Shown piece after piece: positions 1,113 to 15,020 of a stretch of 15,020 bases of DNA (position 1 is its first letter; each line of letters opens with the position of its first letter). The stretch comes from Comamonadaceae bacterium (GTDB taxonomy: Bacteria > Pseudomonadota > Gammaproteobacteria > Burkholderiales > Burkholderiaceae_C). The stretch is taken from assembly GCA_947494405.1 (NCBI GenBank), contig CANLWQ010000016.1:1-15020 (forward strand), in the 5' to 3' direction. The position numbers and the translations under genes are program-made. The notes under the pieces are model-generated. The model did not search any database. It had not been told where the DNA came from and worked only from the letters and a program-made list of their open reading frames with translations.

Positions 1113-1786
1113 GGTGAAAGCTGAAGTAAAGAGGCCAAAGGTTCAAGCGACCATTGAATGGCTTGGGTGGTGGCTTGCATGATGGGGCGCATCCAAAAGG
1201 TGTTGACTGCACCCATCAGCACCAAGCCCATGACAATGAAAAAGCCATAGCGCTCTATGTGCGAGAAACCAATGGCCAAACGCATGGGGAGCAAGCCCAC
1301 CAAGATACGACCGCCATCCAGTGGCGGCAAAGGAAACAGATTGAAGGCAAACATCACCAAATTGACCAGCACACCGGCTTGAGCCATCTCAAGAAAGAAG
1401 CGCTCTTCGCTGCCCATGCCTGAGAGCAGGTAAATCACCACCGCCCAGGCAAAGGCTTGGAATAAATTGGCCGCTGGGCCGGCCAAAGCCACCCAGATCA
1501 TGTCGCGCTTGGGGTGTCCCAGACGGGAAAAATCCACCGGAACTGGCTTGGCATAACCAAACAAAAACTGACCAGAAGTGACGAAAAACAGCATCAAAGG
1601 CATGATGACCGTGCCAATCAGGTCGATATGGGGAAAGGGATTGAGTGTCACGCGGCCCATTTGCCAAGCGGTATCGTCGCCCAGTTGGCGAGCCGCATAA
1701 CCATGGGCGGCCTCGTGCAGGGTAATGGCCAGCAGCACAGGAATGGCATGCGTGGAAATTGTTTGTACTAATTCATTTAAATTCAC
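1109..1786 (-). CDS. Site-2 protease family (M50) membrane metalloprotease
   Basis: A 225-residue intramembrane zinc metalloprotease of the compact bacterial M50 group. The zinc motif is HEAAH (H24, E25, H28), and the second metal-binding motif is NLFPLPPLDGG, with D157 as the expected third ligand. Hydrophobic segments lie at roughly 13-28, 56-78, 96-122, 134-156 and 178-195. It lacks the PDZ domains of RseP-type proteases, and its substrate is unknown. The start is GTG at 1786, preceded by GAGAGA about 9 bases upstream; an ATG inside that leader is followed at once by a stop. Its stop overlaps the trpS ATG. Such a protease next to trpS is, to my knowledge, common in Burkholderiales; a functional link to tRNA charging is not established. 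Confidence 0.93.
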   Translation of the reverse strand: MNLNELVQTISTHAIPVLLAITLHEAAHGYAARQLGDDTAWQMGRVTLNPFPHIDLIGTVIMPLMLFFVTSGQFLFGYAKPVPVDFSRLGHPKRDMIWVALAGPAANLFQAFAWAVVIYLLSGMGSEERFFLEMAQAGVLVNLVMFAFNLFPLPPLDGGRILVGLLPMRLAIGFSHIERYGFFIVMGLVLMGAVNTFWMRPIMQATTQAIQWSLEPLASLLQLSP

Positions 1787-1825
1787 AAATCCATTCTCTC
1801 ATTAATTTTTATCAATTTATTGGCT

Positions 1826-1848
1826 AAAAGTATGTGATAAATACTTTT
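1826..1848. repeat. AT-rich inverted repeat in the gap before the M50/trpS pair
   Basis: Perfect 8-bp arms AAAAGTAT (1826-1833) and ATACTTTT (1841-1848) flank the 7-base loop GTGATAA. The repeat sits inside an AT-rich gap of 115 bp (1787-1901) between yciO and the M50 gene, in otherwise much more GC-rich DNA. On the plus strand a T-run follows, but no plus-strand gene ends here. On the minus strand the run of A precedes it, so it is a poor intrinsic terminator for yciO. It may instead be an operator or part of the promoter for the M50-trpS pair. I found no convincing -35/-10 pair. Function is a guess. Confidence 0.35.
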
Positions 1849-1901
1849 TTTTAAGCCGTTTAGCGCTGACATAATTTTGAAATAACACTATATATGTAAT
1901 T

Positions 1902-2537
1902 TTACAAACCTAAAAGTTCTAATTCCCCTAAACCTTGACGTAAAACTTCTGGTTCACCGCCCTCGCTCATGCCTGTCAAATCGACAACAGTGGTGGCTTG
2001 AAGGCTGCAAGCGCCCGCATCGATGACCGCGGCGACTTGGTGTTCATAACGCTGGCGAATCAAGTCGGCGTCGTTCAGGGCTTGGGTTTCATCTTTGGGG
2101 ATCAATGTGGTGGCCAGCAAAGGCGACCCATGAATTTCCAGCAAAGCCAGCAAGGTCGCATGGTCCGGCACCCGCAAACCAATGGTTTTGCGCTGTGGAT
2201 GGGCTACGCGGCGCGGCACTTCTTTGGTGGCCTCTAATATGAAGGTGTATGCCCCAGGTGTCGCGGCTTTGAGCAAACGAAATTGACGGTTATCCACCTT
2301 GGCATACAAAGAGAGTTCGCGCAAATCGCGGCACAACAAGGTCAGATGGTGTTTGTCGTCGACACCACGGATCTGGCGCAAGCGGTCAATCGCGGTCTTA
2401 TCGTCTATGTGACAGACCAAGGCATAACTGGAGTCGGTGGGCACCGCCAGCACACCGCCTTGGGTGAGCAATGCAGCAGCTTGCTTGAGCAAACGGATTT
2501 GTGGATTGTCCGGATGGACTTGAAATAATTGCGCCAT
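1902..2537 (-). CDS. yciO: YciO, Sua5/YrdC/YwlC-family protein
   Basis: A 211-residue single-domain YrdC-fold protein. It shows the nucleotide/threonylcarbamoyl-AMP pocket segments of the family: GGVLAVPTDSSYAL (about 27-40), the HHLTLLCRDL segment (about 63-72), PGAYTFILEATKEVPRR (about 94-110) and GLRVPDH (about 120-126). The N-terminus (FQVHPDNPQIRLL) and the KEVPRR segment match E. coli YciO more closely than TsaC, the enzyme that makes threonylcarbamoyl-AMP for tRNA t6A. YciO proteins are poorly characterised, and I would not assign essential t6A synthesis to this gene. The ATG start follows the PHP gene stop by 16 bases without a good Shine-Dalgarno, suggesting translational coupling. 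In E. coli yciO is also next to the PHP gene yciV, so the pairing is conserved. Confidence 0.9.
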   Translation of the reverse strand: MAQLFQVHPDNPQIRLLKQAAALLTQGGVLAVPTDSSYALVCHIDDKTAIDRLRQIRGVDDKHHLTLLCRDLRELSLYAKVDNRQFRLLKAATPGAYTFILEATKEVPRRVAHPQRKTIGLRVPDHATLLALLEIHGSPLLATTLIPKDETQALNDADLIRQRYEHQVAAVIDAGACSLQATTVVDLTGMSEGGEPEVLRQGLGELELLGL

Positions 2538-2553
2538 GGGATAAGCGTTGCGC

Positions 2554-3405
2554 TTATTGGATGCGGTGGGTCAGCAGTTCCCACACCGGTGTCAGGTTTC
2601 CGGGCAACCATGGCAGTGCACCTAAATCGGTACGGCTTTCTTCTGGACTGTGAAAGTCGCTGCCCCTTGAAGCAGCCAAACCAAACTCGCGGGCCATATC
2701 GGCGTATTGAATGGCTTCAGCGGCCGAATGGCTGCCGGTGACCACTTCGACGGCTTGACCGCCGTGGCGTTTGAATTCAGAAAACAGCGCGTATTCCTCG
2801 GTGGGCGTGAAGTCGTAGCGCGCAGGATGGGCAATCACAGCAACCCCTTGGCACTCGCGAATCCAACTTACCGCGTTGCCCAGACCTGCCCAGCGGTGCT
2901 CTACATAGCCCGGTTTGCCTTCAGTCAGAAAGCGGCGAAAAACTTCGTAGGTATCAGCGCAAACACCGGTTTCGACCAAGTAACGGGCAAAGTGGGTGCG
3001 GGAAATCAAGTCGGGGTTGCCTGCATAGGTGAGCGCACCTTCAAAGCTGCCGTGTATGCCGACCTTGGCCAAACCAGCGGCCATGTCCAAAGCGCGGTCG
3101 TGCCGACCACCCCGGGTGGAGCGCAAACCTTCTTGCATGCGGGGGTCTTGCGGATCAAAGCCCAGACCCACAATATGTACCGTGCGACCGGCAAAGGATA
3201 CCGATATTTCGGTGCCATACAAATAGCCCATGCCCAGCGCTTGGGCGGCAGCGCAAGCACGCGCTTGACCGCCAATTTCGTCATGGTCGGTGAGAGACCA
3301 CAACTCCACACCATTGGCGTGTGCCCGTGCAGCCAGCGCCTCGGGCGTGAGGGTTCCGTCGGAGACGACAGAGTGGCAATGCAAATCGGCGTTAAGAATA
3401 GACAC
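2554..3405 (-). CDS. rnm: PHP-domain phosphoesterase, RNase AM / 3',5'-nucleoside bisphosphate phosphatase (YciV-like)
   Basis: A 283-residue PHP-domain hydrolase. Metal ligands expected of the family are all visible: H9, H11 and D16 (DLHCHSVVSD), D40-H41-D42 (TDHDE), E66 (GTEIS), H77 (VHIVG), H193 (AHPARY), and D250 with H252 (GSDFH). Homologues remove the 3' phosphate from 3',5'-nucleoside bisphosphates such as pAp, and E. coli YciV (RNase AM) trims the 5' ends of small structural RNAs. The start is GTG at 3405, just one codon (CCC) after the recJ TGA and in the same frame, with no Shine-Dalgarno; translation must rely on termination-reinitiation by ribosomes leaving recJ. Co-expression with recJ, which produces nucleotides, is plausible. 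Assignment to the family is secure; exact substrate preference is inferred. Confidence 0.92.
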   Translation of the reverse strand: MSILNADLHCHSVVSDGTLTPEALAARAHANGVELWSLTDHDEIGGQARACAAAQALGMGYLYGTEISVSFAGRTVHIVGLGFDPQDPRMQEGLRSTRGGRHDRALDMAAGLAKVGIHGSFEGALTYAGNPDLISRTHFARYLVETGVCADTYEVFRRFLTEGKPGYVEHRWAGLGNAVSWIRECQGVAVIAHPARYDFTPTEEYALFSEFKRHGGQAVEVVTGSHSAAEAIQYADMAREFGLAASRGSDFHSPEESRTDLGALPWLPGNLTPVWELLTHRIQ

Positions 3406-3408
3406 GGG

Positions 3409-5124
3409 TCAATTGTAGAAGGGCTGCATGGCTTCAATCTGTAACTGCACTTTGTCCATCCCTTGCCAGTGGTTGATGTCAAGCCGGTAGGCCAAGATGG
3501 CTTGCACAGGCAAGCTTTGCGTGCGGCCAAACCAAATAGCGTCCACCACTTGTCCGTGCAGTTGCAACTTCAGCGACAAATGTTTCTCACCCACTATTTT
3601 TTGGCTCATCACATGCACCGTGTCTTGAAAAACAGGCGCAGCAAAACCCTGTCCCCATACTTGAGATTGCAGCTCTTTAATGAGGTCGGGGCGCAAATAC
3701 TGCTGCGGCAAGCTGCCATCCGTGGCCAGTGTTTGCGCCAAAGTGGCCTCATCCAACCACTCAGAAGAAATGTCTTGCAAGGCCATCTCAAACAAAGCCA
3801 AGTCGTCTTCAAGCAAAGTACAACCCGCAGCCATGGCGTGACCGCCAAAGCGCAGCAATAAATTCGGATGTCGTTTGGCTATGGCGTCCAAGGCATCGCG
3901 CAAATGAAAACCGGCGATGGAGCGACCCGAGCCTTTGAGCACCGCTTGACCCTGGGACTGGCTGCTGGCAAACACAAAACACGGGCGGTAATGCAAGTCT
4001 TTCAATCGACCCGCGATGATGCCCACCACGCCCTCGTGGAAATCTTCATCAAACACGCAAAGAGCGGCAGGCGCCTCTTCTTCTGTGTCCATCAAAGACT
4101 CGGCCAACAGCAATGCTTGTTCGCGCATATCGCCTTCAAGGCTTCTGCGCTCGCGGTTGATGGCGTCGAGTTGGCTGGCTAAACGCCAAGCGAGTTCGCT
4201 GTCGTCGGTGCGCAAGCATTCAATACCCAAGCTCATATCGGACAAGCGACCGGCGGCGTTGATGCGCGGGCCAATGGCAAAACCCATGTCTTGGCTGCTG
4301 GCTTGCGCTGGGTCGCGACCCGCCACTTTGAACAAGGCTGCTAATCCTGCGGGCATATGGCCACGGCGCATGCGCAACAAACCTTGAGAGACCAAACGGC
4401 GGTTGTTGGCGTCGAGTACCACCACATCGGCCAGCGTCCCCAAGGCAACCAAAGGCAGCAAGCTGTCGAGTTTGGGCTCGCTGTCTTTATTGAAAATACC
4501 GCGTTCGCGCATCAGCGCGCGCAAGGCCAGCAAGACATAAAACATCACGCCCACACCCGCCATGCTTTTGCTCTCAAAAGTACAAGCTGGTTGATTGGGA
4601 TTGACCAATGCATCTGGCGTGGGCAGTTCGCTGCCTGGCAAATGGTGGTCGGTGATCAGCACTTGCATGCCCAATTGATGGGCTTCTTGCACGCCGCTCA
4701 CGCTGGCAATGCCGTTGTCTACAGTGATCAACACCTGCGCGCCGCTGGCGTGAACACGCTTGGCAATCTCGGGCGTTAAGCCGTAGCCATCGACCACGCG
4801 GTCTGGCACGATGAAGCTCAGGTGTTGCGCGCCTAGCAGTGCCAAACCACGCAAGGCCACTGCGCAGGCAGTGGCGCCGTCACAGTCGTAATCGGCCACG
4901 ATGCAAATGCGCAGTTGTTGGGCTATGGCGTTGGCCAACAAGCTGGCGGCTGCGTCTATGCCTTTGAGACCTGAGGGCGGCAGCAGCAGACGCAATTCGG
5001 TCTGCAGTTGTTGTGCATCGTGCACGCCGCGGGCTGCATACAAACGCGCCATCAAAGGATGGACACCGCTTTGTTCCAGCGCCCAAACACTTCTAGGCGG
5101 TACATCACGCACCTGAAGTTTCAT
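3409..5124 (-). CDS. recJ: Single-stranded-DNA-specific 5'-3' exonuclease RecJ
   Basis: RecJ degrades single-stranded DNA 5' to 3' in RecF-pathway recombination, mismatch repair and repair of stalled forks. The 571-residue protein has the usual family length. DHH-domain motifs are intact: D78, D80 and D82 (VADYDCDGATA), D136 (VDNGI) and D159-H160-H161 (TDHH). The DHHA1-type motif GGHAMAAG begins at residue 427, followed by the C-terminal OB-like part. An open frame extends further upstream to 5412, but the start is placed at the ATG at 5124 because a near-perfect GGAGGT lies 6 bases upstream and homology begins at MKLQVRDVPP. This ATG overlaps the stop of the RpfE-like gene (ATGA). The stop is followed after one codon by the PHP gene. 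Confidence 0.97.
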   Translation of the reverse strand: MKLQVRDVPPRSVWALEQSGVHPLMARLYAARGVHDAQQLQTELRLLLPPSGLKGIDAAASLLANAIAQQLRICIVADYDCDGATACAVALRGLALLGAQHLSFIVPDRVVDGYGLTPEIAKRVHASGAQVLITVDNGIASVSGVQEAHQLGMQVLITDHHLPGSELPTPDALVNPNQPACTFESKSMAGVGVMFYVLLALRALMRERGIFNKDSEPKLDSLLPLVALGTLADVVVLDANNRRLVSQGLLRMRRGHMPAGLAALFKVAGRDPAQASSQDMGFAIGPRINAAGRLSDMSLGIECLRTDDSELAWRLASQLDAINRERRSLEGDMREQALLLAESLMDTEEEAPAALCVFDEDFHEGVVGIIAGRLKDLHYRPCFVFASSQSQGQAVLKGSGRSIAGFHLRDALDAIAKRHPNLLLRFGGHAMAAGCTLLEDDLALFEMALQDISSEWLDEATLAQTLATDGSLPQQYLRPDLIKELQSQVWGQGFAAPVFQDTVHVMSQKIVGEKHLSLKLQLHGQVVDAIWFGRTQSLPVQAILAYRLDINHWQGMDKVQLQIEAMQPFYN

Positions 5125-6107
5125 TGCAATACCTCCGACAGCGTTGGCCGGCGCCACAAAGCTTGAAGCTGGTGCAACCAGCCCGAAGCTGGGGCATGCA
5201 AAAGAACACTGCGTGCGGGCTCGCACAGCAGCACCGGTTCTTGTCGCCGCAACGCTGGCGCTATCAGGTCGCGCAGCACCGCATTGAAAGCCGGCATAAA
5301 AACATCGGGCGTTTGGCTTAGCCATGCCTCTCGCAAGTCGTCGTTCAAAACGACGGCTGGCTTGGCGCTGGTATGGGGCTTGTTGGGTAAGTCGCCGGTG
5401 CCGCTGAACCAAATGGAATTCAAAGCAATGTCTCGCCTATCGTTGACGGCATGCGTGTAGAACAGCATTTGTATTTCGTTTTGCAAGCGACGCAGTTGTC
5501 GTTGAACCGGGTTTTGCTCTGCAATCTTGTCGTGTTCAAACCAAGTGTCTATGCGTTGGCCATTGACCCGGTCTAAAGAAACAGTTGGCAAGCCTTTGAA
5601 CAATGGGGAGTGAGCCAACCAGCGCCCGGGGCGCCAAGCATGTAAATGGATGCCGTCTTGTGCCAAAAACGTTTGCAAAGCCAACAGCAATGCATCCGAC
5701 TCCTCAGGGCTGATGGGTTTGGGGACCGTTAAATTCACCTGCCCTTGGCTGATGTGCCAGTTCACCGCATCCATGAAAGCCCATCCGTGATCAGCAGGGC
5801 AATGCAAACCTTGGGACAGTGCGGCGTCAGCGGCCAGTGGCACCAAACCATCAGCGACTTGCCAGCCCAGTGCTTGCGCCCAAGCCATTTCATGGCTGGC
5901 GCTGTGCGCCGTTGCTGCCAGTGTCTTTCTTTCGCTCAGCTTGGCTTGCCGCAAGGGCACCAGTAATTCGGCGCTGCTCAAACTGTCAAATGCCTGTTGC
6001 CAGTGCACACGATCGGGGTGATGAAGAGCCAACCCTAGCGGCAGGGCGAAAGCAACAATGGTCAAAGGCGCAGCAGCAGTCATAAAGAGGATTGTGCAAG
6101 ATGCCAC
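5121..6107 (-). CDS. RpfE-like conserved hypothetical protein upstream of recJ
   Basis: A 328-residue protein of unknown function. It resembles the family of Xanthomonas RpfE, which I recall is also next to recJ; some relatives carry the label phosphoglycerate mutase, which I would not trust. The N-terminus is moderately hydrophobic (TIVAFALPLGLAL) but does not look like a cleavable signal. Visible blocks are AHSASHEMAWAQALGW, a DAVNWHISQGQVNL strand region, a central LQNEIQMLFYTHAVNDRR segment, and NSIWFSGTGDLP. No metal or nucleotide motif is obvious. The start is uncertain: GTG at 6107 has AGGA 5 bases upstream, whereas ATG at 6083 lacks a Shine-Dalgarno. It is the first gene of the minus-strand block and is ATGA-coupled to recJ, suggesting a role in the same process. 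It diverges from the Lol permease gene with only about 12 bp between starts. Confidence 0.75.
   Translation of the reverse strand: MASCTILFMTAAAPLTIVAFALPLGLALHHPDRVHWQQAFDSLSSAELLVPLRQAKLSERKTLAATAHSASHEMAWAQALGWQVADGLVPLAADAALSQGLHCPADHGWAFMDAVNWHISQGQVNLTVPKPISPEESDALLLALQTFLAQDGIHLHAWRPGRWLAHSPLFKGLPTVSLDRVNGQRIDTWFEHDKIAEQNPVQRQLRRLQNEIQMLFYTHAVNDRRDIALNSIWFSGTGDLPNKPHTSAKPAVVLNDDLREAWLSQTPDVFMPAFNAVLRDLIAPALRRQEPVLLCEPARSVLLHAPASGWLHQLQALWRRPTLSEVLQ
5131..5136 (-). promoter_or_regulatory. Strong ribosome binding site that fixes the recJ start
   Basis: The minus strand reads GGAGGT, 6 bases before the ATG at 5124, inside the last codons of the upstream RpfE-like gene. It is one of the few clear Shine-Dalgarno sites in the left block and rules out the 96-residue longer reading of recJ. 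Confidence 0.8.
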
Positions 6108-6119
6108 AATAGTCCTGCA

Positions 6120-7385
6120 ATGAATCTTTCACACATGCCTTTTGAGTTACTGGTGGGTTGGCGCTATACCCGTGCCGGCCGAGCGGCTCGCCGCAACCGC
6201 TTTATCTCTTTCATTTCCTCGGTGTCCATGCTGGGCATCGCTTTGGGTGTGGCCGCCCTCATCATTGTTTTGAGCGTGATGAATGGTTTTCAAAAAGAGG
6301 TGCGCGACCGCATGCTGGGTGTGTTGTCGCATGTGGAGGTTTTGGCCTACACCAGCGCAGCGCTTGTGGATGCACCGGCCTTGCAAAACAAACTGGCCCT
6401 GCATTCGCAGGTGGTGGCCAGCGCCCCCTTTGTGTTGTCACAAGGTTTGTTGGCCCAAGGCGAGGACATGCGAGGCGCGGTGGTGCGTGGCATTGACCCA
6501 GCGCAAGAAGTGCTGGTGACGCAGGCCGTGGCGCAGATGCCGCGTGAGGTGCTAGACCAGTTACAAGCAGGTGGCTTTGGGGTGGTGTTGGGCAGCGAAT
6601 TGGCGCGTGCTTTAGGTGTGAAGACCGGCGAGCACATCACCTTGGTTGCGCCCGGTGGGCAGGTCACGCCCGCGGGCGTGGTGCCGCGATTGAAACAGTT
6701 GACAGTGGTGGGCTTGCTCGACTCAGGTCACTATGAATACGACGCGTCATTGGCCTTGCTGCATATGGATGACGCACAACGCATCTTCAGGCTGGAAGGG
6801 CCTAACGGTATACGCGTGAAATTGAAAGACGCGCAACAAGCGCGACAAGTGGCGGCCGAACTCACCCCTCTATTGGGCGACGATGTGATGGTTCGCGACT
6901 GGACCCGCGCCAACCGCACTTGGTTCGCCGCTGTGCAAATCGAAAAACGCATGATGTTCATCATCCTCACCCTCATCGTGGCGGTGGCGGCCTTTAACTT
7001 GGTCAGCACCTTGGTGATGACGGTCACCGACAAACAAGCCGACATCGCCATCTTGCGCACTTTGGGTGCCAGTCCGTCCAGCATCATGGGTATTTTTGTG
7101 GTGCAAGGCGCGCTGGTGGGTGTGGTGGGCACCTTGTCGGGCTTGGCACTGGGGCTGTTGGTGGCTTTCAATATTGGCAGTATCGTGCCGGCCATCGAGC
7201 AGGCTTTGGGCGCGAGCTTTTTACCCAAAGACATTTACCTCATCAGTCGCATGCCCAGCGACCCGCAGTGGGCCGACATTGGTCCCGTGGTCATCATCGC
7301 TTTGGTGTTGGCCTTTGTGGCCACCCTCTACCCCAGTTGGCGCGCCAGTCGCATAGACCCCGCAGAGGCATTGCGTCATGAGTAA
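6120..7385 (+). CDS. lolC: LolC/LolE-family lipoprotein-releasing ABC transporter permease
   Basis: Inner-membrane permease of the Lol system, which extracts mature outer-membrane lipoproteins from the inner membrane and hands them to LolA. The 421-residue protein has the family layout: N-terminal cytoplasmic segment ([17 protein letters not shown]), TM1 about 28-55 ending in the conserved [14 protein letters not shown], a large periplasmic domain about 60-270, and three C-terminal TM segments near 278-301, 322-350 and 387-408. The cytoplasmic loop [12 protein letters not shown] follows TM2, as in FtsX/MacB-type permeases. Only one permease gene is present, where E. coli has both lolC and lolE; whether the other lies elsewhere cannot be seen, so the C versus E symbol is tentative. 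ATG codons at 6120 and 6135 are both possible, neither with a Shine-Dalgarno. It overlaps lolD by 8 bp. Confidence 0.93.
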
Positions 7386-8052
7386 GTTGGTGCTGCAAGC
7401 CCAAGGTTTGGGCAGACGTTTTCACGAGGGCGTGATTGATGTCACGGTGCTGCATGACATCGATGTGCAAGTGCATGCGGGCGAAACACTGGCGGTGGTG
7501 GGCACCTCGGGTTCGGGCAAAAGCACACTTTTGCACCTGCTAGGGGGGTTGGACACGCCCACCACGGGCCAGGTGCGCTTACTCGACCAAGGTTTGCAGG
7601 GATTGAGCGCCAAGGCTTTGGGACGTTTGCGCAACCAGCATTTGGGCTTTGTCTACCAGTTTCACCATTTGTTACCTGAGTTCACCGCCTTGGACAATGT
7701 GGCCATGCCCCTGTGGATACGCCGCATGCCGCGAGAGCAAGCCGCTGTTCAAGCCAAAGCAATGTTGCAGGCCGTGGGTTTGGGCGAGCGAGTGCACCAC
7801 ACACCCAGCGAGTTGTCAGGGGGCGAGCGCCAGCGGGTAGCGATTGCCCGCGCCTTGGTCACCCAACCAGCTTGTGTGCTGGCCGATGAACCCACAGGCA
7901 ATTTAGACCGCGCTACAGCGGACAACGTGTTTGCGCTGATGTTGCAATTGGCCAAGCAACAAGGCACGGCTTTTGTGGTGGTTACCCATGATGAGCGTTT
8001 GGCCGCGTTGTGCGACCGGCAATTGCGTTTGGTGGCCGGGCGCTTGGTTTAA
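7378..8052 (+). CDS. lolD: Lipoprotein-releasing ABC transporter ATP-binding protein LolD
   Basis: The cytoplasmic ATPase that powers lipoprotein release by the LolC/E permease. The 224-residue protein has all ABC motifs: Walker [10 protein letters not shown] (42-50), Q-loop Q94 ([12 protein letters not shown]), signature LSGGE (146-150), Walker B VLADEP with D170 and E171, D-loop around 177 and H-loop H204. The [17 protein letters not shown] segment is characteristic of LolD rather than other MacB-type ATPases. The ATG lies inside the last codons of the permease gene, with GAGG about 9 bases upstream. The next feature downstream is an 80-bp palindromic repeat, which may end its transcript. 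Confidence 0.96.
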
Positions 8053-8087
8053 CTCTGTTCGTGATCGCTAAGCCCTAGCTATTGCTT

Positions 8088-8167
8088 GGCCACCAGGGCG
8101 GGCTCGTTCGCCACTCACCACCGCTTCGCGCTGATGCTCGAGGCTAGCCCGACCCGCCATGCTGGCC
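8088..8167. repeat. Palindromic intergenic repeat, copy A (REP/MITE-like)
   Basis: An 80-bp non-coding element that aligns with 9776-9857 at about 88% (8 substitutions and 2 single-base gaps); 8127-8151 is 25 bases identical to 9816-9840. Its ends form an imperfect inverted repeat: GGCCACCAGGGCGGG (8088-8102) against the complement of 8153-8167 (13 of 15 match). It lies 35 bp after the lolD stop, between convergent genes, so a transcript could fold it into a long GC-rich hairpin and end there. No transposase or flanking direct repeat is visible. Spurious open frames cross it. It is probably one member of a dispersed family in this genome. Confidence 0.85.
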
Positions 8168-8169
8168 TG

Positions 8170-8196
8170 ATTAATTGGGATCTGACCCCGATTAAT
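8170..8196. repeat. ATTAAT/GGGGTCAGATCCC hairpin downstream of the antitoxin
   Basis: Arms ATTAATTGGG (8170-8179) and the complement of CCCCGATTAAT (8186-8196) match at 9 of 10 positions around a short loop. On the minus strand it reads ATTAATCGGGGTCAGATCCC and begins 9 bases after the antitoxin stop, where it could act as a terminator, though no long U-run follows. I recall that GGGGTCAGA-CCC palindromes are frequent beside toxin-antitoxin genes and REP-associated transposases, which would mark it as a mobile-element scar. That comparison is from memory. Confidence 0.5.
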
Positions 8197-8204
8197 TTGC
8201 AGCT

Positions 8205-8492
8205 TCAACCAACTTGCACCAACAACTGTTTTCCACAAGCTTGGACATATTTACGCAGGGTAGCTACAGAAGGTGAGTGCTTGCCGGTGGCTAAGGCTCT
8301 TTCCAGCCTAGCGACAGCAGGTGCATGTGTGCCCATGCGCCTCGCCAGCTCTGCTTGCGAGAGTCCGGCTGCCATGCGAGCCTTGAGTAAAGCGTCCAAT
8401 AATTCTCCTTCCTCGCGTTCAATCCGTTCAATCTCGGCTTTCACGCGGGGACGCCGCATCAAGGTATCAACAACTTGGTCATGGGTTTTCAT
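8205..8492 (-). CDS. XRE-family HTH antitoxin of a type II toxin-antitoxin pair
   Basis: A 95-residue DNA-binding antitoxin. The N-terminal half (about 15-40) is a charged helical segment. The XRE helix-turn-helix covers about 36-70, with LSQAELARRMGTHAPAVARLE as its core (44-64); the C-terminal tail (LRKYVQACGKQLLVQVG) is typical of HigA-like antitoxins paired with Gp49-type toxins. It should neutralise the toxin encoded just upstream and repress their shared promoter. The ATG lies 14 bases inside the toxin frame, and a purine-rich GAAGAAAG precedes it. Toxin-first order is the usual HigBA arrangement. Base composition is somewhat more AT-rich than in the flanking housekeeping genes, fitting acquired DNA. 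Confidence 0.88.
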   Translation of the reverse strand: MKTHDQVVDTLMRRPRVKAEIERIEREEGELLDALLKARMAAGLSQAELARRMGTHAPAVARLERALATGKHSPSVATLRKYVQACGKQLLVQVG

Positions 8493-8811
8493 ATTTGACT
8501 TTCTTCATTCGCATCATTGCCACAGCCAATTCGTTTGCCGGTGTCTTTGGGGTTTTCTTGACAAAGCTGTGCAGCATGACAATTCGGCGTCCTATCAAGG
8601 TGCAGTAAAAAACTCTTGCAATCCCCTCAGCACCTTTAAGTCGCAATTCAAACAAACTTTGTCCCATGGCTTTCGTATGGGGTTCTCCTAAGTGCGGTCC
8701 CAATGCCACCATGCGCCGCGTCAGCACTACATAGCGAGCTGCCAAAGTTGGAGGCAAACTTAGGATGTCTTTTTGCACCTGATCGCTGAAGTATTGGATG
8801 ACATAGTCCAT
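8479..8811 (-). CDS. RelE/HigB-superfamily toxin, phage Gp49-like
   Basis: A 110-residue toxin of the Gp49-like branch of the RelE/ParE superfamily; relatives are ribosome-dependent mRNA interferases. Diagnostic segments are FELRLKGAEGIARVFYC (about 54-70), the strand RRIVMLHSFVKKTPKTP (about 75-91) and the terminal helix ELAVAMMRMKKVKYE. Basic residues R57, R66 and K85-K86 lie where catalytic and RNA-binding residues are found in the superfamily, though exact roles cannot be assigned from sequence alone. It is the first gene of the pair and overlaps the antitoxin start by 14 bp. The start ATG at 8811 lies just downstream of two palindromes likely to be the operator. The gene is full length and appears intact. 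Confidence 0.88.
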   Translation of the reverse strand: MDYVIQYFSDQVQKDILSLPPTLAARYVVLTRRMVALGPHLGEPHTKAMGQSLFELRLKGAEGIARVFYCTLIGRRIVMLHSFVKKTPKTPANELAVAMMRMKKVKYENP

Positions 8812-8819
8812 GCGTATAT

Positions 8820-8846
8820 TAACAAATTTGTTATTGATCTGATCAA
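8820..8846. promoter_or_regulatory. Tandem palindromic operator upstream of the toxin-antitoxin genes
   Basis: Two perfect palindromes abut: TAACAAATTTGTTA (8820-8833) and TTGATCTGATCAA (8834-8846, one-base centre). They begin 9 bases before the toxin ATG, where the minus-strand promoter should lie; TTGATC and TAATAT on that strand are weak -35/-10 candidates at a long 19-base spacing. XRE antitoxins generally repress their own promoters by binding such palindromes, so an autoregulatory operator is the natural reading. Two different half-site sequences are unusual. Confidence 0.65.
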
Positions 8847-8932
8847 GGCAATCCAGTGTGTAGGGAATCAGGGGTTTAAGGTTGTGCTTTGTGCACCTGA
8901 TAAGGGTGAGCCATTAACAGGACAATAGAGTC

Positions 8933-9739
8933 ATGCCTTGGATAGACAGCCACTGCCATCTTGATGCGCCGGAATTCGCTGCCGACCGCGACGCGGTGCG
9001 CCAAGCCGCACGGCTAGCGGGGGTGGTTACTTGCCTTATCCCAGCAGTGGAGGCAGCCAACTTTGAAGCTGTGCGTCAACTCGCCCACCAGCACGGCGAT
9101 GTTTACGCTTTAGGCATTCACCCGCTGTACACACCGCAGGCCAGTGAGTCCGACCTGCAAACACTGAATGACGCCTTGCAACAGCACCAAGCCGACCCTC
9201 GCTTGGTGGCAGTGGGTGAAATTGGTTTGGATGGTTTTGTTCCTGGCTTGGACATGGTGCGACAACAACTTTTTTACCAAGCGCAACTCAAGTTGGCTCA
9301 ACAGCACGACCTGCCAGTCATCATGCATGTGCGGCGCAGCGCCGATTTGCTGCTTAAAGGTTTACGCAAAACACCTGTCAAGGGCGGCATTGCCCACGCC
9401 TTCAATGGCAGCTTGCAGCAAGCTCAGCAATTCATTGCCATGGGTTTCAAGCTGGGTTTTGGTGGTGCACTCACCTTCGAACGCGCACATCAACTGCGAA
9501 TGCTCGCTACCCAACTGCCCTTAGAAGCCTTGGCGCTCGAGACCGACTCCCCCGACATCCCGCCGCATTGGTTGTATGTGACCGTCGAAGACCGCGCCCG
9601 AGGTTTGCCGCAAGGGCGCAACTCGCCAGACCAAATCCCGCGCATCGCCCAAGCGCTGGCAGCCTTACGCGGCATCAGCATGGAAGAAGTACAGCTTGCC
9701 ACCACCGCCAATGTGAAGGCGGTGTTGCAGATGGAATAG
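8933..9739 (+). CDS. TatD-family metal-dependent hydrolase / deoxyribonuclease (YjjV-like)
   Basis: A 268-residue TIM-barrel metallohydrolase of the TatD DNase family, cytoplasmic, with a role in DNA end processing in characterised members. Metal-site residues are intact: H7 and H9 (DSHCHLD), E96 (GEIGLD), H132 (MHVRRS), H155 (AHAFNGS) and D205 (LETDSPD). The GIHPLYTP and HAFNGSLQQAQQF segments fit the E. coli YjjV branch better than TatD itself. ATG at 8933 is preceded by AGGA 10 bases upstream. The 5' neighbour is the divergent toxin operon, so its promoter should lie in 8847-8932, where I see no clear elements. Its TAG stop touches an inverted partial copy of the palindromic repeat. Confidence 0.93.
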   Translation: MPWIDSHCHLDAPEFAADRDAVRQAARLAGVVTCLIPAVEAANFEAVRQLAHQHGDVYALGIHPLYTPQASESDLQTLNDALQQHQADPRLVAVGEIGLDGFVPGLDMVRQQLFYQAQLKLAQQHDLPVIMHVRRSADLLLKGLRKTPVKGGIAHAFNGSLQQAQQFIAMGFKLGFGGALTFERAHQLRMLATQLPLEALALETDSPDIPPHWLYVTVEDRARGLPQGRNSPDQIPRIAQALAALRGISMEEVQLATTANVKAVLQME

Positions 9740-9764
9740 GCCAACCAAGGCGGGTCGGGCTAGC
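9739..9764. repeat. Partial inverted copy of the palindromic repeat
   Basis: These 26 bases match the reverse complement of the right end of copy A (8143-8167) at 23 of 26 aligned positions, including an identical 16-base run GGCGGGTCGGGCTAGC. The match starts at the last base of the tatD-like stop codon. It can also pair with the right end of copy B (9833-9857), so 9739-9857 could fold as one large stem. It is either a truncated older insertion or a longer form of the element. Confidence 0.7.
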
Positions 9765-9775
9765 AGGTGCGTGAC

Positions 9776-9857
9776 AGCCAACAGGGGCGGGTTCGTTCGC
9801 CTCTCACCATCGCTGCGCGCTGATGCTCGAGGCTAGCCCGCCCCGCCCCTGCTGGCC
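9776..9857. repeat. Palindromic intergenic repeat, copy B (REP/MITE-like)
   Basis: An 82-bp relative of copy A in the same orientation. Its terminal inverted repeats are better preserved: AGCCAACAGGGGCGGG (9776-9791) matches the complement of 9842-9857 at 14 of 16 positions. It lies between the tatD-like gene and the spermidine-synthase-like gene and contains a false start codon at 9823 that would lengthen the latter by 22 residues. No protein-coding content. It could weaken read-through between the two genes. Confidence 0.85.
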
Positions 9858-9888
9858 GCAGCGTGCTGTGTACGGCGACAATACCTGC

Positions 9889-10641
9889 ATGGTCAGCAAA
9901 CAAACCCTTCCGCAAGTCAATATCTCCGAACATGGCAAGGTGCGTTATTTGCATTTGGGCTCTCAGTGGGTGCAAGGCTCCATGGACACCCGCAAACCCA
10001 ACGCCATCCATTTGGACTATGTGCAACGCATGCAGGCATGGCTGTTGTTTGTCGACCCAGACACGGTAAACCAATTACACGCCATGCAACTGGGTTTGGG
10101 GGCTGCCGCACTCACCAAAAATTGCCACAAAGTCTTGGGCATGCAAACCACCGCCATCGAACTCAATCCACAAGTCATTGGGGCTTGTCGCAGCTGGTTT
10201 GGCTTGTCCGAAGATGATGACAAGTTGTCGGTGGTCTTGGGCGACGCAGCCGAGGTGGTGGTGCATGCCTATTGGCGCGCCCAAATCGATGTCTTGCATG
10301 TTGACTTGTACGACCAAGAAGCCGCGGCCCCGGTGCTTGATGACGCCGATTTTTATGCCCAATGCCGCCAACTTCTCACGCAGCAGGGCTGCATGGCGGT
10401 CAATCTGTTTGGTCGTTCTTCCAGTTTTGAAAAGAGCATGGCGCATATCGCCCAAGCCTTTGGTGAAAAAACCTTGTGGACTTTCAAACCCACCAAAGAA
10501 GGCAACACCGTTGTGCTGGCGCTGGCCCAGCCTCATGCTGTGGACACACAGTTGTTGTCAAGCCGTGCCGAGGCGATACAAGCGCGTTTTGGCTTGCCAG
10601 CGCCGCTGTGGCTCAAGTCGCTCAAACCCTTTTCGGTTTAG
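9889..10641 (+). CDS. Spermidine-synthase-like SAM-dependent protein, function unknown
   Basis: A 250-residue protein with the Rossmann methyltransferase-like fold of the spermidine/spermine synthase superfamily. Motif I is LGLGAAALTK (68-77), the acidic residue after strand 2 is E91 (AIELNP), GDAAE (118-122) would contact the adenine ring, and HVDLYDQ (137-143) ends strand 4. The specific polyamine-synthase substrate residues are not evident, and the N-terminal beta-domain is short, so polyamine synthesis should not be assumed. The open frame extends upstream to 9823 inside the repeat; I prefer ATG at 9889, where the domain begins, although no good Shine-Dalgarno is seen and GTG at 9868 is possible. 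It is followed by tctB after 38 bp. Confidence 0.82.
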   Translation: MVSKQTLPQVNISEHGKVRYLHLGSQWVQGSMDTRKPNAIHLDYVQRMQAWLLFVDPDTVNQLHAMQLGLGAAALTKNCHKVLGMQTTAIELNPQVIGACRSWFGLSEDDDKLSVVLGDAAEVVVHAYWRAQIDVLHVDLYDQEAAAPVLDDADFYAQCRQLLTQQGCMAVNLFGRSSSFEKSMAHIAQAFGEKTLWTFKPTKEGNTVVLALAQPHAVDTQLLSSRAEAIQARFGLPAPLWLKSLKPFSV

Positions 10642-10679
10642 GTGACAATGCCAGTCTCTCCATTGCCATAGGTCGTAAT

Positions 10680-11174
10680 GTGTCGATCAAAAGCGAAAAA
10701 GACTTTGCCTCCGGTTTGCTGTTCATCGTCACAGGTGGCGGCTTCACATGGGCCAGTACCTCGTCCTACACCATAGGGTCTGCCAGTCAGATGGGGCCGG
10801 GCTATGTGCCCTTGGTCTTGGGTTTGGTATTGACAATGCTTGGCGGTCTAATTCTATTTTTCTCATTGGTGGTGGAGACACCTGATGGCGGAAAAATAGG
10901 CGACATTGCTTGGCGTCCTTTGGTGTGTATTTTGGGTGCCAACCTCGCCTTTGGCGCATTGCTGGGTGGCGTGCAAAGCATAGGCTTGCCCTCCATGGGT
11001 TTGATGGTGGCGATCGTGGCGCTTACCGTGATTGCCGCCATGGCCGACGAGGCGGCTTTTGAAATTCGCCGCGTCTTGTTGCTGGCTACCGTATTGGCTG
11101 GCGGCAGCTACCTTATTTTCATTGCTTTGTTGGGCTTGCCAATGCCTATTTGGCCTGCTTTTTTGGTTTTGTAG
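10680..11174 (+). CDS. tctB: Tripartite tricarboxylate transporter small membrane subunit TctB
   Basis: A 164-residue small integral-membrane subunit of the TTT-family secondary transporter; with TctA and a periplasmic TctC/Bug binding protein it imports carboxylates. The N-terminus IKSEKDFASGLLFIVTG and the segment TIGSASQMGPGYVPLVLG are characteristic of TctB. Four or five hydrophobic segments lie near 10-25, 42-63, 80-98, 103-118 and 128-150. The open frame runs much further upstream, over the end of the preceding gene; GTG at 10680 is chosen because AGGT lies 7 bases before it and homology begins there. Its stop is 11 bases before tctA. Confidence 0.88.
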   Translation: MSIKSEKDFASGLLFIVTGGGFTWASTSSYTIGSASQMGPGYVPLVLGLVLTMLGGLILFFSLVVETPDGGKIGDIAWRPLVCILGANLAFGALLGGVQSIGLPSMGLMVAIVALTVIAAMADEAAFEIRRVLLLATVLAGGSYLIFIALLGLPMPIWPAFLVL

Positions 11175-11185
11175 ATCGGAATCTC

Positions 11186-12697
11186 ATGGATTTGCTTGCC
11201 AATTTAGCCACCGGTTTCAGTGTTGCGGGTACCCCCATCAATTTGCTCTATGCCTTGGTGGGTTGCCTGCTGGGCACCCTGATTGGTGTCTTGCCTGGCA
11301 TTGGCCCTGTGGCCACCATCGCCATGCTGCTGCCCGCCACCTATGCCTTGCCGCCCGAGTCGGCCTTGATCATGTTGGCCGGTATTTACTATGGCGCGCA
11401 ATATGGCGGCTCGACCACAGCGATTTTGGTTAATTTGCCGGGCGAGTCTTCATCGGTGATCACCACCATCGATGGCTACCAAATGGCCCGTCAAGGGCGT
11501 GCCGGCCCCGCTTTGGCCGCCGCTGGTTTGGGCTCGTTTTTTGCGGGCTGTGTGGGTACTTTGTTGTTGGCGGCGTTTGCCGCACCGCTCACTGAGATGG
11601 CGTTTGCCTTTGGTCCTGCCGAATACTGCGCCCTGATGGTCCTGGGTTTGGTTGGCGCGGTGGTGTTGGCCTCGGGTTCCTTGCTCAAAGCCATTGCGAT
11701 GATTATTTTGGGTTTGCTTTTGGGCTTGGTAGGCACCGATGTCAACTCTGGCATTGCGCGCTTCAACATGGATATTCCCGAATTGACCGATGGAATTGGT
11801 TTTGTGGCCGTGGCCATGGGTGTGTTTGGTTACGGAGAAATCATCGCCAACTTGGCCAAGGCGGGTGAGGACCGTGAAGTCTTCACTGCCAAAGTGCACG
11901 GACTGATGCCCACCCGTGAAGACTTTCGCCAAATGATGCCCGCGGTTTTGCGCGGTACCGCGCTGGGCTCGGTGTTGGGCATCTTGCCTGGCGGTGGCGC
12001 GGTACTGGCGTCTTTTGCCGCCTACACCTTAGAGAAAAAAATCAAGCGCAAGGCGAGTGAAGTGCCGCTGGGTCAAGGCAATATCCGTGGTGTGGCTGCC
12101 CCCGAGGCTGCCAACAACGCGGGGGCGCAAACTTCCTTTATTCCTTTGCTGACCCTGGGAATTCCGCCCAATGCGGTGATGGCGCTGATGGTGGGCGCCA
12201 TGACGATTCACAATATTCAGCCCGGCCCGCAGGTGATGACGGTCAACCCAGAATTGTTTTGGGGTCTGATTGCGTCCATGTGGATTGGCAATTTGATGTT
12301 GGTTGTTTTGAACCTGCCCTTGATCGGTGTCTGGATCAAATTACTCACCGTGCCCTATCATTTTTTGTTTCCGGCCATTGTGTTGTTTTGTGCGGTGGGC
12401 GTTTACACCACCAACAATGCCACCTTCGATATTGCGCTGGTGGCCATGTTTGGAATGGCGGGCTACCTGTTTCATAAACTTGGCTGCGAACCTGCGCCGC
12501 TTTTGCTGGGCTTTGTCTTAGGCCCTATGTTGGAAGAGTATTTAAAGCGCGCTTTAAAACTGGCGCGCGGCGACTGGTCGGTGTTCATCACCCGGCCCTT
12601 GTCCGCCGCTTTGTTGGCCATCGCCTTGTTATTGGTGGTCATGGTTTTGCTGCCGGCTGTCAAGTCCAAAAGAAAAGAAGCTTTTGTCGAAGATTGA
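11186..12697 (+). CDS. tctA: Tripartite tricarboxylate transporter permease TctA
   Basis: The large membrane subunit of the TTT transporter, 503 residues with about 12 hydrophobic segments, the usual family length. Hallmarks are GTLIGVLPGIGPVATIAMLL (30-49), the GIYYGAQYGGSTTAILVNLPG region (about 71-91), a second LPGGGAVLASF segment (about 266-276) and the APEAANNAGAQTSFIPLLTLGIP block near residues 307-329. ATG at 11186 is used rather than an in-frame ATG at 11150 inside tctB; GGA lies 6 bases upstream. No tctC-type binding-protein gene is in the window, so the substrate cannot be guessed; betaproteobacteria often have many unlinked Bug proteins that could serve it. The next gene starts 5 bases after its stop. 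Confidence 0.95.
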   Translation: MDLLANLATGFSVAGTPINLLYALVGCLLGTLIGVLPGIGPVATIAMLLPATYALPPESALIMLAGIYYGAQYGGSTTAILVNLPGESSSVITTIDGYQMARQGRAGPALAAAGLGSFFAGCVGTLLLAAFAAPLTEMAFAFGPAEYCALMVLGLVGAVVLASGSLLKAIAMIILGLLLGLVGTDVNSGIARFNMDIPELTDGIGFVAVAMGVFGYGEIIANLAKAGEDREVFTAKVHGLMPTREDFRQMMPAVLRGTALGSVLGILPGGGAVLASFAAYTLEKKIKRKASEVPLGQGNIRGVAAPEAANNAGAQTSFIPLLTLGIPPNAVMALMVGAMTIHNIQPGPQVMTVNPELFWGLIASMWIGNLMLVVLNLPLIGVWIKLLTVPYHFLFPAIVLFCAVGVYTTNNATFDIALVAMFGMAGYLFHKLGCEPAPLLLGFVLGPMLEEYLKRALKLARGDWSVFITRPLSAALLAIALLLVVMVLLPAVKSKRKEAFVED

Positions 12698-12702
12698 AAC
12701 CC

Positions 12703-13992
12703 ATGATGGTCACTGAACACCCTTTACGCCGGGCTTTGCACAACGAGGTGCACGCCCGCCCCCCCGAACCCATGGCCGCGCCTGTGGCCATCTGCCATAT
12801 GGTGATGTTGGCCGATGCTGATGTGCGTCAAGCCAGCCGCGCCCACTTGATCAGCTTGTTGCATGACCACCATTTGCCCGTTCCCGATGAACAAACCAAT
12901 CACCTGCGGGTGGATATGGGCACTTGGCGTTTGCGTTGGGAGTTGCATACCGAGTTCGTCACTTGGACTTTCATGACGGACGCTCCCATGGGTTTGCCCA
13001 AAGGCAGCGACTATGACTTGGCTTTGCGCCAACTGCCTCAAGAGTGGTTGAAAAACTTGCCCGGTGAATGCTTGGCGCATATCCAACTGTGGGCCAAGTT
13101 GACGCAAGATTTGGCTGACCGCGAAGAACTGCATCAGCAGTTTCGCGAAGAAAGTTTGGTGGCTTGCCAACTCGCTGAAGGCTCGGCCACACTGCATACC
13201 GATTTCCAAATTGACCCCAGTGGCTGCTCGCGCATGTTGTTGCGTGTGGGACAAATCTCGCAACGCCGTTTGGGTCGATTGGTTCAGCGATTGCTGGAAA
13301 TTGAAACCTACCGCATGATGGCTTTGCTGGGCTTGCCAGTTGCCCGCAGCGCCGTGCCAGCCTTGGCCGCTGCTGAGCAAGAGTTAGCTGATTTGGCACA
13401 AGCCATACGCAGTGCCAGCCAAGAACAAGAAGCCGATTTGTTAGAACGCTTGACCCGCTTGGCCGGTCAAGTTGAAGGCTTGTATGCCTCTCAGCATTCA
13501 CGCTTTTCCGCCAGCCAAGCTTATTTTGAATTGGTCGACCGTCGTATCAAAGATATTCGCGAAACCCGCTTGCCTGGTTTTCAATCGGTGGGCGAGTTCA
13601 TGGAGCGACGCTTAAGCCCCGCGCGCAGCACCTGTGACTGGGTGGCCAAGCGGCAAACCGCGCTCTCTGAACGGGTCTCGCGCATGAGCAATTTGTTGCG
13701 CACACGAGTGGATTTTCAGCAGCAGCAAAGCAGCCAAGCACTGCTGACCGCCATGAACCGCCGCCAAGGCATGCAACTGAAATTGCAAACCACAGTGGAA
13801 GGCTTGTCGGTGGCGGCCATCACTTATTACATTGCCGGACTGGTGCATTACATGGCCGAGGGCTTGCAAGCCAAGGGTTGGATTCAAAATCCCGCTATGG
13901 CCACCGCCATTGCCGTACCACTGATTGCGTTGGTGATTTGGTGGGTCACCCGCCGTTTGCATTTCAAGGTGATGAAGACAGATAAAACATGA
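12703..13992 (+). CDS. DUF3422 family membrane protein
   Basis: A 429-residue protein of the DUF3422 family, function unknown. The N-terminal signature HPLRRALHNEVHARPPEP is diagnostic. Middle regions are helical and rich in charged residues and glutamine (about 215-365, including ERRLSPARSTCDWVAKRQ), suggesting coiled coil. Two TM segments close the protein, about 366-386 and 400-418, leaving a short basic tail, so most of it is probably cytoplasmic; the overall layout recalls CorA-type membrane proteins only loosely. TTG at 12694 would overlap tctA, and ATG at 12703 or 12706 is more likely. Its stop overlaps the start of the transferase gene as ATGA, implying co-translation and possibly a shared pathway. 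Confidence 0.9.
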   Translation: MMVTEHPLRRALHNEVHARPPEPMAAPVAICHMVMLADADVRQASRAHLISLLHDHHLPVPDEQTNHLRVDMGTWRLRWELHTEFVTWTFMTDAPMGLPKGSDYDLALRQLPQEWLKNLPGECLAHIQLWAKLTQDLADREELHQQFREESLVACQLAEGSATLHTDFQIDPSGCSRMLLRVGQISQRRLGRLVQRLLEIETYRMMALLGLPVARSAVPALAAAEQELADLAQAIRSASQEQEADLLERLTRLAGQVEGLYASQHSRFSASQAYFELVDRRIKDIRETRLPGFQSVGEFMERRLSPARSTCDWVAKRQTALSERVSRMSNLLRTRVDFQQQQSSQALLTAMNRRQGMQLKLQTTVEGLSVAAITYYIAGLVHYMAEGLQAKGWIQNPAMATAIAVPLIALVIWWVTRRLHFKVMKTDKT

Positions 13993-15020
13993 CATTCCAT
14001 TTCTCAAACCCCTACACCAGCACCCGCCTTCCTGTTTTTGCTCGCAACATCGTTTCCACCTCCCACCCCTTGGCTGCCCAAGCGGGTTTACGCGTCTTGT
14101 GGCAAGGCGGTAATGCGGTGGACGCTGCCATCGCCGCTGCCGCGGTGCTGACCATCGTCGAACCTGTGAGCTGTGGCTTGGGTTCGGACGCGTTTTGTAT
14201 TTTGTGGGACGGCAAAGCCTTGCATGGTTTGAACGCCTCGGGGCGTGCGCCTCAAACTTGGACGCCTGAATATTTCCAAGACAAATACGGCGCTGATGCA
14301 CTGCAACCACCCAAGCGCGGCATCGACTCGGTGACCGTGCCTGGTGCGGTGGCGAGTTGGGTGGCGATGAGCGAGCGGTTTGGCAAACTGCCTTTTGCCG
14401 ATTTGCTGCAGCCGGCCATAGAAATTGCCGAGCGGGGGTTTTTGCTGAGTGTGGTGGTGCAAGAAAAATGGGCGGCGGCGGTGCAAGAGCTGCAAAGCCA
14501 ACCCGGCTTTGCCGAGCATTTTCTGCCCAGGGGACGCGCGCCCCAGGTAGGCGAGTTGTTTCAGTTTGCGGCAGCCGCTCGCGGTTTGCGTGCGATTGCC
14601 GACACCAAAGGCCAAGCGTTTTACGGCGGCGAAATAGCCCAAGCCTTGGAGAAATTTTCCAATGCCCACGGCGGCAGCTTGAAAGCCAGCGACTTTGCGG
14701 CCTACCAAGCCGATTGGGTCACGCCTATTTCACAAAACTACCGTGGCCACACCCTGCATGAAATTCCACCCAATGGCCAGGGCATTGCCGCGCTCATCAC
14801 TTTGGGTATTTTGGGTAATTTCGATTTGGCTGGCTTGGCGCTGGACGGCGTGGATTCGCAACACCTGCAGATCGAGGCGATGAAACTGGCCTTTGCCGAT
14901 GTCTACCGCTATGTGGCTGATGCGCAAAGCATGGAAGTCACTGCCCAACAGATGCTGGACCCTTCTTATTTGAAGCAACGCGCTGGCATGATTGATATGA
15001 AGAAAGCGCAAGACTTCAAG
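13989..15020 (+). CDS. Gamma-glutamyltransferase-family protein, 3' end cut by window edge
   Basis: The first 344 residues of an Ntn-hydrolase of the gamma-glutamyltransferase family, which makes one chain that cleaves itself into two subunits. Visible family blocks are VSTSHPLAAQAGLRVL, the GGNAVDAAIAAAAVL segment (about 41-55), VEPVSCGLGSDAF (about 58-70), SVTVPGAVASW and IPPNGQGIAAL. The GLGSDAF block resembles B. subtilis YwrD and other cytoplasmic members rather than classical periplasmic GGT, and no signal peptide is present. The catalytic threonine of the small subunit would lie beyond the edge, so activity cannot be confirmed. It might hydrolyse gamma-glutamyl compounds or a related amide. 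The ATG overlaps the DUF3422 stop. Confidence 0.92.
   Translation, partial: MTFHFSNPYTSTRLPVFARNIVSTSHPLAAQAGLRVLWQGGNAVDAAIAAAAVLTIVEPVSCGLGSDAFCILWDGKALHGLNASGRAPQTWTPEYFQDKYGADALQPPKRGIDSVTVPGAVASWVAMSERFGKLPFADLLQPAIEIAERGFLLSVVVQEKWAAAVQELQSQPGFAEHFLPRGRAPQVGELFQFAAAARGLRAIADTKGQAFYGGEIAQALEKFSNAHGGSLKASDFAAYQADWVTPISQNYRGHTLHEIPPNGQGIAALITLGILGNFDLAGLALDGVDSQHLQIEAMKLAFADVYRYVADAQSMEVTAQQMLDPSYLKQRAGMIDMKKAQDFK

Follow-up and report, generated by a model that had tools for sequence, protein, structure and literature searches.

Where the palindromes between the genes of bacteria come from, and what moves them, is still debated. Repetitive extragenic palindromic (REP) sequences of the GTAG- and CGTC-tagged kinds are 20–40 bp long with an unpaired tag (Di Nocera et al. 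2013, PMC3733652), and REP-associated tyrosine transposase (RAYT) genes have REPs of their own on their flanks (Nunvar et al. 2010, PMC2817692). REPINs are REP doublets that form hairpins (Bertels and Rainey 2011, PMC3116915), terminal inverted repeat (TIR) families associated with TIRYT transposases carry the motif GGGGWSAS (PMC3733652), and ERIC, YPAL and other small repeats that resemble miniature inverted-repeat transposable elements (MITEs) are enterobacterial in the reports cited (PMC2229807, PMC2759123). Here we describe a hairpin, termed hairpin A, that occurs twice in a 15,020-nt stretch of DNA from a Comamonadaceae bacterium (the window; assembly GCA_947494405.1, contig CANLWQ010000016.1, positions 1 to 15,020). 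We read it as a REP/BIME-like hairpin family without a GTAG/CGTC tag or a known mover, BIMEs being bacterial interspersed mosaic elements. More fully, it would be a dispersed, non-autonomous repeat that originated within one Limnohabitans-like clade or shortly before it and multiplied to species-specific copy numbers, a reading to which we assign a probability of about 0.6.

An initial annotation of the window had placed the two copies in a REP/MITE-type family. As a dispersed hairpin with inverted dimers and a mosaic arrangement, hairpin A behaves like a REP, BIME or REPIN, but it has neither the size, the tag nor the transposase of a REP and therefore lies outside the REP definition. Like the REPs of PMC3733652, it is a palindrome, probably intergenic and often in convergent or unidirectional contexts, whose inverted dimers consist partly of unlike halves; it differs in a core of 67 nt with pairing that continues into the 14 nt beyond on each side, in longer arms, in the want of a constant tag and in a conserved loop inside the stem. 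Among 115 copies, 39 had GTAG immediately 5' of the core loop and 42 had AACGTC (four of 119 copies without a readable core were dropped), and neither was unpaired at an end. GTAG-type REPs flank a Y1 (RAYT) gene, whereas a search of 30 Y1 loci at E up to 0.1, with flanks of at most 1.5 kb, found hairpin A at none of them, although 13 came from genomes that carry it; the same result separates it from the RAYT genes with their own REPs described in PMC2817692.

Comparison with the other systems gave a similarly mixed picture. With the REPINs of PMC3116915 hairpin A shares compensatory changes, dispersal, tandem arrays and supposed mobilization in trans, but REPINs hold two REPs constant while the spacer varies, whereas hairpin A holds its inner part while its tip and outer arms vary. 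It is also BIME-like, in the terms of PMC2817692, in belonging to a mosaic of palindromic modules with a set order and orientation, the other module being a second hairpin, hairpin B. A separate short palindrome in the window and the repeats around the Y1 gene (GGGGTCAG) fit the GGGGWSAS motif of the TIRYT-associated TIRs (PMC3733652); by contrast, that motif is not in the hairpin A consensus, and the absence of hairpin A from the Y1 loci applies here too. The ERIC- and YPAL-type repeats are alike in their MITE-like form, length (~100–170 bp) and occurrence in multiple intergenic regions, and they are set apart from hairpin A by their enterobacterial description in PMC2229807 and PMC2759123.

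A strand-specific hairpin kept by compensatory change

Each of six copies folded into one long hairpin on the strand corresponding to the minus strand of the window (RNA fold z-scores -2.76 to -6.67), and for both window copies 0 of 200 shuffles were equally stable. DNA folding of the two window copies gave z-scores of -3.40 and -2.32 on the minus strand and of -1.09 and -1.56 on the plus strand. The fold z-scores, together with the further copies in other contigs and genomes, place the window hairpins beyond chance. A covariance model with a 67-position core (R1) was built from six copies, four from the source genome (G000; 79.7% complete, 270 contigs) and two from another genome of the genus (G007), and its training set included both window copies.

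An alignment of 78 matches, 65 of them distinct rows (A4), had 87.1% of its cells paired, compared to at most 52.3% in slid versions. A double-sided change was present in 18 of 25 pairs (shuffles, mean 12.1; slid versions, 9–12; 0 of 500 shuffles as high), and the covariation was 0.335 versus 0.127 (standard deviation 0.007), a level reached by 0 of 500 shuffles. Because A4 was fitted to the model, pairing was also checked in sequence outside it. In the 14-nt flanks beyond the model, the arms of 115 distinct copies scored -8.80 with their own partner versus -5.91 with swapped partners (standard deviation 0.22), while stretches farther out showed little pairing (-5.49 versus -5.18, standard deviation 0.19).

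The tip-proximal core, CGARC-RT..GTGAG, was nearly invariant and contained a fixed internal loop and a U.G pair. The loop is 3-by-1, with G in 63 of 65 rows, A in 65 (position 29) and A in 53 or G in 12 on one side, opposite an A in 64 (position 52), and pair 33-49 was U.G in 64 rows. Among the 1543 cells of A4, G.T (153, of which 64 were from pair 33-49) outnumbered A.C (44), from which it follows that one strand is favoured. Hairpin A is, then, strand-specific and kept by compensatory change. Its design, a constant inner core with free arms, is the opposite of that of REPINs. ERIC/YPAL-like repeats are known for constant arms, not for a constant core.

Copies, clade and arrangement of hairpin A

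The initial annotation had proposed a palindromic repeat family that is dispersed, and this was borne out: BLAST found 4 copies in G000 and R1 found 11, so that a reading with only the two window copies is ruled out. When 84 genomes of the genus were scanned with R1 at E up to 0.01, 20 of them had matches, 171 in total, from one copy in G036 to 42 in G007, counts that are lower bounds as the scan scored at most 61 candidates per genome under strict filters. A second model (R2) matched three of 399 genomes of the family, with absence elsewhere being soft since only 12 candidates per genome were scored. Two of the three were G000 and G084; the third, a weak match (36 bits) in another genus (G303), looked by eye like high-GC coding DNA and was set aside. 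The exact core pattern occurred in 59 stretches of a genome contig collection, all of them labelled as Comamonadaceae, Burkholderiales, Betaproteobacteria or Limnohabitans metagenome-assembled genomes. The coordinates of hairpin matches were identical between our genome set and the Limnohabitans record SHXP01 (G066; G007 and G084 correspond in the same way to CANGHG01 and CAISPG01), and on this basis we infer that the carriers belong to Limnohabitans or a genus very near it. We found no paper linking Limnohabitans with repetitive extragenic palindromes; among the papers listed for words of the sequence none had a title on a bacterial repeat, and among those listed on the wider subject none named Limnohabitans, which does not prove absence from print.

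A TatD tree was made of 30 fetched genomes out of 77 with a match, the carriers G036, G102 and G107 not being included. Hairpin A was present in 17 of the 18 members of one clade (support 98/96) and in 0 of the 12 genomes outside it; the one clade member in which it was not found, G024, is the sister of a carrier.

The copies have a fixed polarity. Neighbouring pairs no more than 350 bp apart numbered 25, 13 inverted and 12 direct, and the 5' ends faced each other in all 13 inverted pairs, as in the inverted dimers of REPs and REPINs. Of 115 distinct copies of hairpin A, 45 had hairpin B on the same strand within 400 nt of their 5' side; in 8 (tandem arrays) B was on the same strand but only on the 3' side, and in 2 it was on the other strand, these classes overlapping. 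Hairpin B has the core CTGSKCTHTCGCTC, bordered by T and A runs and enclosed in GC-rich arms (e.g., L082 2638, L063 396, L189 2385), and hairpin A follows it downstream in some cases but not in others. Linker lengths differ among the B-A composites, so that aligning them with MAFFT was of limited value. As for MITE-like termini, hairpin A has palindromic arms, and a terminal-repeat search of the composites found TGAAGTCACGC and GCGTGACTTCA bounding one clean unit of 255 bp (locus L156), the others being looser.

Other palindromes also stood beside hairpin A. One of the GGGGTCAG type was within 80 nt on the 3' side of 21 of 119 copies and on the 5' side of 8, and the word GATTGCTTCG was within 80 nt on the 3' side of 24 (0 reversed) and on the 5' side of none (5 reversed), while random positions give 0.4 to 1.1% for either. 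The GATTGCTTCG repeat, as we read it, resembles CGTC-type REPs. The GGGGTCAG-type pattern had 38 forward and 40 reverse matches in G000, where one palindrome can count on both strands, and a reversed control pattern had 0 and 0. Both neighbouring genes were found for 56 of 76 copies, and their contexts were convergent in 26, tandem in 24 and divergent in only 6; in the tandem contexts the two orientations were equal, 12 and 12.

The tatD locus could be compared across relatives, and hairpin A was present in 4 of 30 tatD loci (G000, G014, G099 and G007). Downstream of tatD, G015 had no insert, G013 and G016 had hairpin B without A, G099 and G007 had B and A, and G000 had A. Between tatD and an ABC-transporter ATPase gene, which we take to be lolD-like, G013 and G014 had a palindrome-B-palindrome arrangement with neither hairpin A nor toxin-antitoxin genes (tatD was read in 19 of 21 loci compared; L198 and L204 were missed by the search motif). 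Modules are thus gained and lost at shared sites, which is the best evidence here for movement. Recent spread, as the initial annotation had suggested, is nevertheless too simple an account: the family is common to the whole clade, and the copy at the tatD site is probably old because G014 has hairpin A there as well, in the opposite orientation. The G014 contig breaks inside this inverted hairpin (L009 1485-1586, end of G014:C31). By eye, the repeat in G016 and G007 (L190, L191) seems to start at or over the tatD stop codon and may supply the end of the gene.

Candidate movers and competing explanations

If hairpin A is mobile, the hairpin would be recognised by a mover in single-stranded form, as single-stranded DNA in replication or transfer, RNA being the rival form. 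The GAR/A loop would be the recognition site, which would leave the arms free to vary while paired, and the enzyme would act in trans. We speculate that in some species copies may move as part of larger structures that have other REP-type palindromes at their boundaries: in one species these would be the GGGGTCAG type associated with its resident Y1 transposase, and in another a GATTGCTTCG type. A bolder proposal, tentative and in our judgement unlikely, is that an undescribed mobile element works through hairpins, A and B being the two that are recognised. An enzyme of the clade would copy it as single-stranded DNA and recognise the fixed GAR/A loop, while the arms would drift as paired units; the clearest case would be a composite B-A whose terminal inverted repeats measure ~11 bp. 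If this were true, gain, amplification and decay of such an element would be traceable inside one bacterial clade. The clustering in one clade, the close relatives without hairpin A, the copy numbers of 1 to at least 42 and the design opposite to that of REPINs make a comparison of carriers with non-carriers a direct means of searching for the mover gene.

The initial annotation had proposed a check for a Y1 transposase gene, and a single copy was found in G000. This transposase was rejected as the plain cognate of hairpin A: its gene has a different palindrome, GGGGTCAG, on either side, and none of the fetched Y1 loci had hairpin A within the flanks covered. The palindromes enclosing the gene (G000:C90, L011, 472-496 and 1240-1264) are of the AATTGGGGTCAGA type, with dozens of family sites in the genome. 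Exact ATTGGGGTCAGA occurred at least once in 17 of the 30 fetched Y1 loci and in none of the other 13. Since the Y1 loci are without hairpin A and no transposase family recurs near it, no known enzyme is assigned as the mover.

Several observations weigh against hairpin A being a mobile repeat of the kind proposed. No mover was found at the Y1 loci or among the frames near hairpin A, and no excision product; in 106 frames (90–600 aa, within 700 bp of hairpin A in loci of the genome contig collection) no transposase family matched at least two, among the 25 of 94 families listed, and PADLOC found no family in more than two members. Target-site duplications, another check that the initial annotation had proposed, were not visible by eye at any junction looked at, including both window copies and L156, no systematic empty-site alignment having been made. 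Hairpin B was not nearby in 61 of 115 copies. The equal orientations in tandem contexts fit a DNA element but are no proof of one. The A4 pair counts, being fitted to the model, lean towards the structure and come from rows that share ancestry, and the flank test escapes the fitting bias only, shared ancestry remaining. The intergenic position claimed by the initial annotation is likely, with 39 of 76 copies outside every called frame, but 37 overlap an unverified frame of at least 80 aa from a crude open reading frame call, most of these short and a few of 160–522 aa.

Other explanations account for parts of these data. It is possible, although we consider it doubtful, that hairpin A (and B) is cargo of elements bounded by GGGGTCAG-type palindromes and moved by the resident Y1 (RAYT/TIRYT-like) transposase. 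In keeping with this, 20 of 76 copies were within 50 bp of such a palindrome versus 3.1% of positions drawn at random from these loci, locus L086 had the order palindrome-A-B-A-palindrome with inverted ends, G013 and G014 had palindrome-B-palindrome between lolD and tatD, and a Y1 gene was present in 17 of the 20 genomes with hairpin A. However, that gene occurred in 65 of the 84 genomes overall, including 48 of the 64 without hairpin A, the Y1 loci again had no hairpin A even in the 13 from carriers, and in the fetched loci of G007, the genome with the most copies, there was no such palindrome beside hairpin A and the GATTGCTTCG word was there instead. Rather unlikely, too, is a structured RNA (a 3' untranslated region stabiliser, a processing site or a small RNA) spread by duplication and selected as RNA. 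The excess of G.T over A.C cells, the covariation, the very stable folds and the few divergent contexts are what such an RNA would show, but the two orientations were equally common in tandem contexts and the patchy, lineage-specific copy number looks like mobile DNA. Rfam 15 had 0 matches at gathering score in the window, and scans of ten other loci up to E 1 gave two weak, unrelated matches below gathering; a known Rfam RNA was ruled out on these scans.

Long near-perfect hairpins are known substrates of replication template switching, and the covariation could in principle be a by-product of such switching perfecting imperfect palindromes, with no selection on the hairpin. At the tatD site the element is inverted in G014 relative to G000, a change that palindromes can undergo and that is consistent with this. 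Correction should, however, also erase fixed mismatches, whereas loop positions 29 and 52 and the U.G pair were retained in 64–65 of 65 rows, and we regard this explanation as very unlikely. It is scarcely credible that hairpin A represents the attC sites of an integron on either side of a toxin-antitoxin cassette, or what is left of a gene segment that was duplicated, even though copies bracket toxin-antitoxin material twice, in the window and, with a short antidote-domain frame, on contig C12. The end boxes of attC sites are GTTRRRY and RYYYAAC, and neither window copy had either box on either strand; an integron integrase over the curated TIGR02249 cut-off was found in 0 of 6 genomes, sub-threshold matches occurring in all 6 and likewise in 14 of 14 controls. 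An attC identity was rejected on these grounds, and a duplicated segment is disfavoured in that duplicated coding sequence would not be expected to give covarying arms.

The window copies and their neighbours

The two stretches of ~80 bp that had drawn attention to this locus were confirmed as copies of hairpin A. A repeat search of the window aligned 8096-8158 with 9785-9847 at 92% over 63 nt, and BLAST of 9739-9860 against its own genome returned 8089-8167 at 89% identity (E 2.5e-22); the longest exact run common to both was the 25 nt reported. Also as described, both have imperfect inverted ends, GGCCACCAGGGCGGG / CCCGCCATGCTGGCC in copy 1 and GCCAACAGGGGCGGG / CCCGCCCCTGCTGGCC in copy 2.

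Table 1. Hairpin A copies and other features of the window, with window coordinates.
Feature	Position	Strand	Remarks
Hairpin A, copy 1	8087..8168	-	model core 8094-8160; R1 85 bits, E 5.8e-16; RNA fold z -3.58
Hairpin A, copy 2	9776..9857	-	model core 9783-9849; R1 81 bits, E 5.0e-15; RNA fold z -6.67
Left arm (a further A unit, 5' half only)	9739..9764	+	81% complementary to 9832-9857 (inverted pair I5)
Separate short palindrome, GGGGTCAG / TIR type (AATTGGGATCTGACCCCGATTAA)	8173..8195	.	adjoins copy 1; same family as repeats flanking the Y1 transposase gene of the genome
ABC-transporter ATPase gene	7378-8052		copy 1 comes after it
HTH_3 protein	8205-8492	-	between the copies
Gp49-like protein	8479-8811	-	between the copies
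TatD_DNase (tatD)	8933-9739		between the copies

The initial annotation had overlooked two features, the short palindrome that touches copy 1 and the left arm that makes 9739-9857 a single 119-bp imperfect palindrome containing copy 2, which lies between tatD and a spermine/spermidine-synthase-like gene. The copies do flank a toxin-antitoxin unit and tatD, as had been stated, with the HTH_3 protein the putative antitoxin and the Gp49-like protein the putative toxin, judging from their families. By eye, upstream of tatD at L189 and L191, sequence of similar appearance occupies this place in G099 and is seemingly damaged in G007; it is absent in G013 and G014.

The weight that the initial annotation gave to this neighbour was not borne out as far as checked. 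Among the 106 frames only Barstar (3) and PIN (2) were toxin-antitoxin families matched more than once, in a test that was weak because proteins under 90 aa were outside the scan. The toxin-antitoxin neighbour looks incidental, on this weak test, and hairpin A in the window probably does nothing to the adjoining toxin-antitoxin genes. On another contig of the source genome (G000:C12, L005 1267-1470), two inverted copies of hairpin A enclose a short frame whose antidote domain is of the addiction-module kind (PF21716) and covers profile positions 2-49 of 90. A half A unit like that at 9739-9764 also precedes hairpin A in the relative G014.

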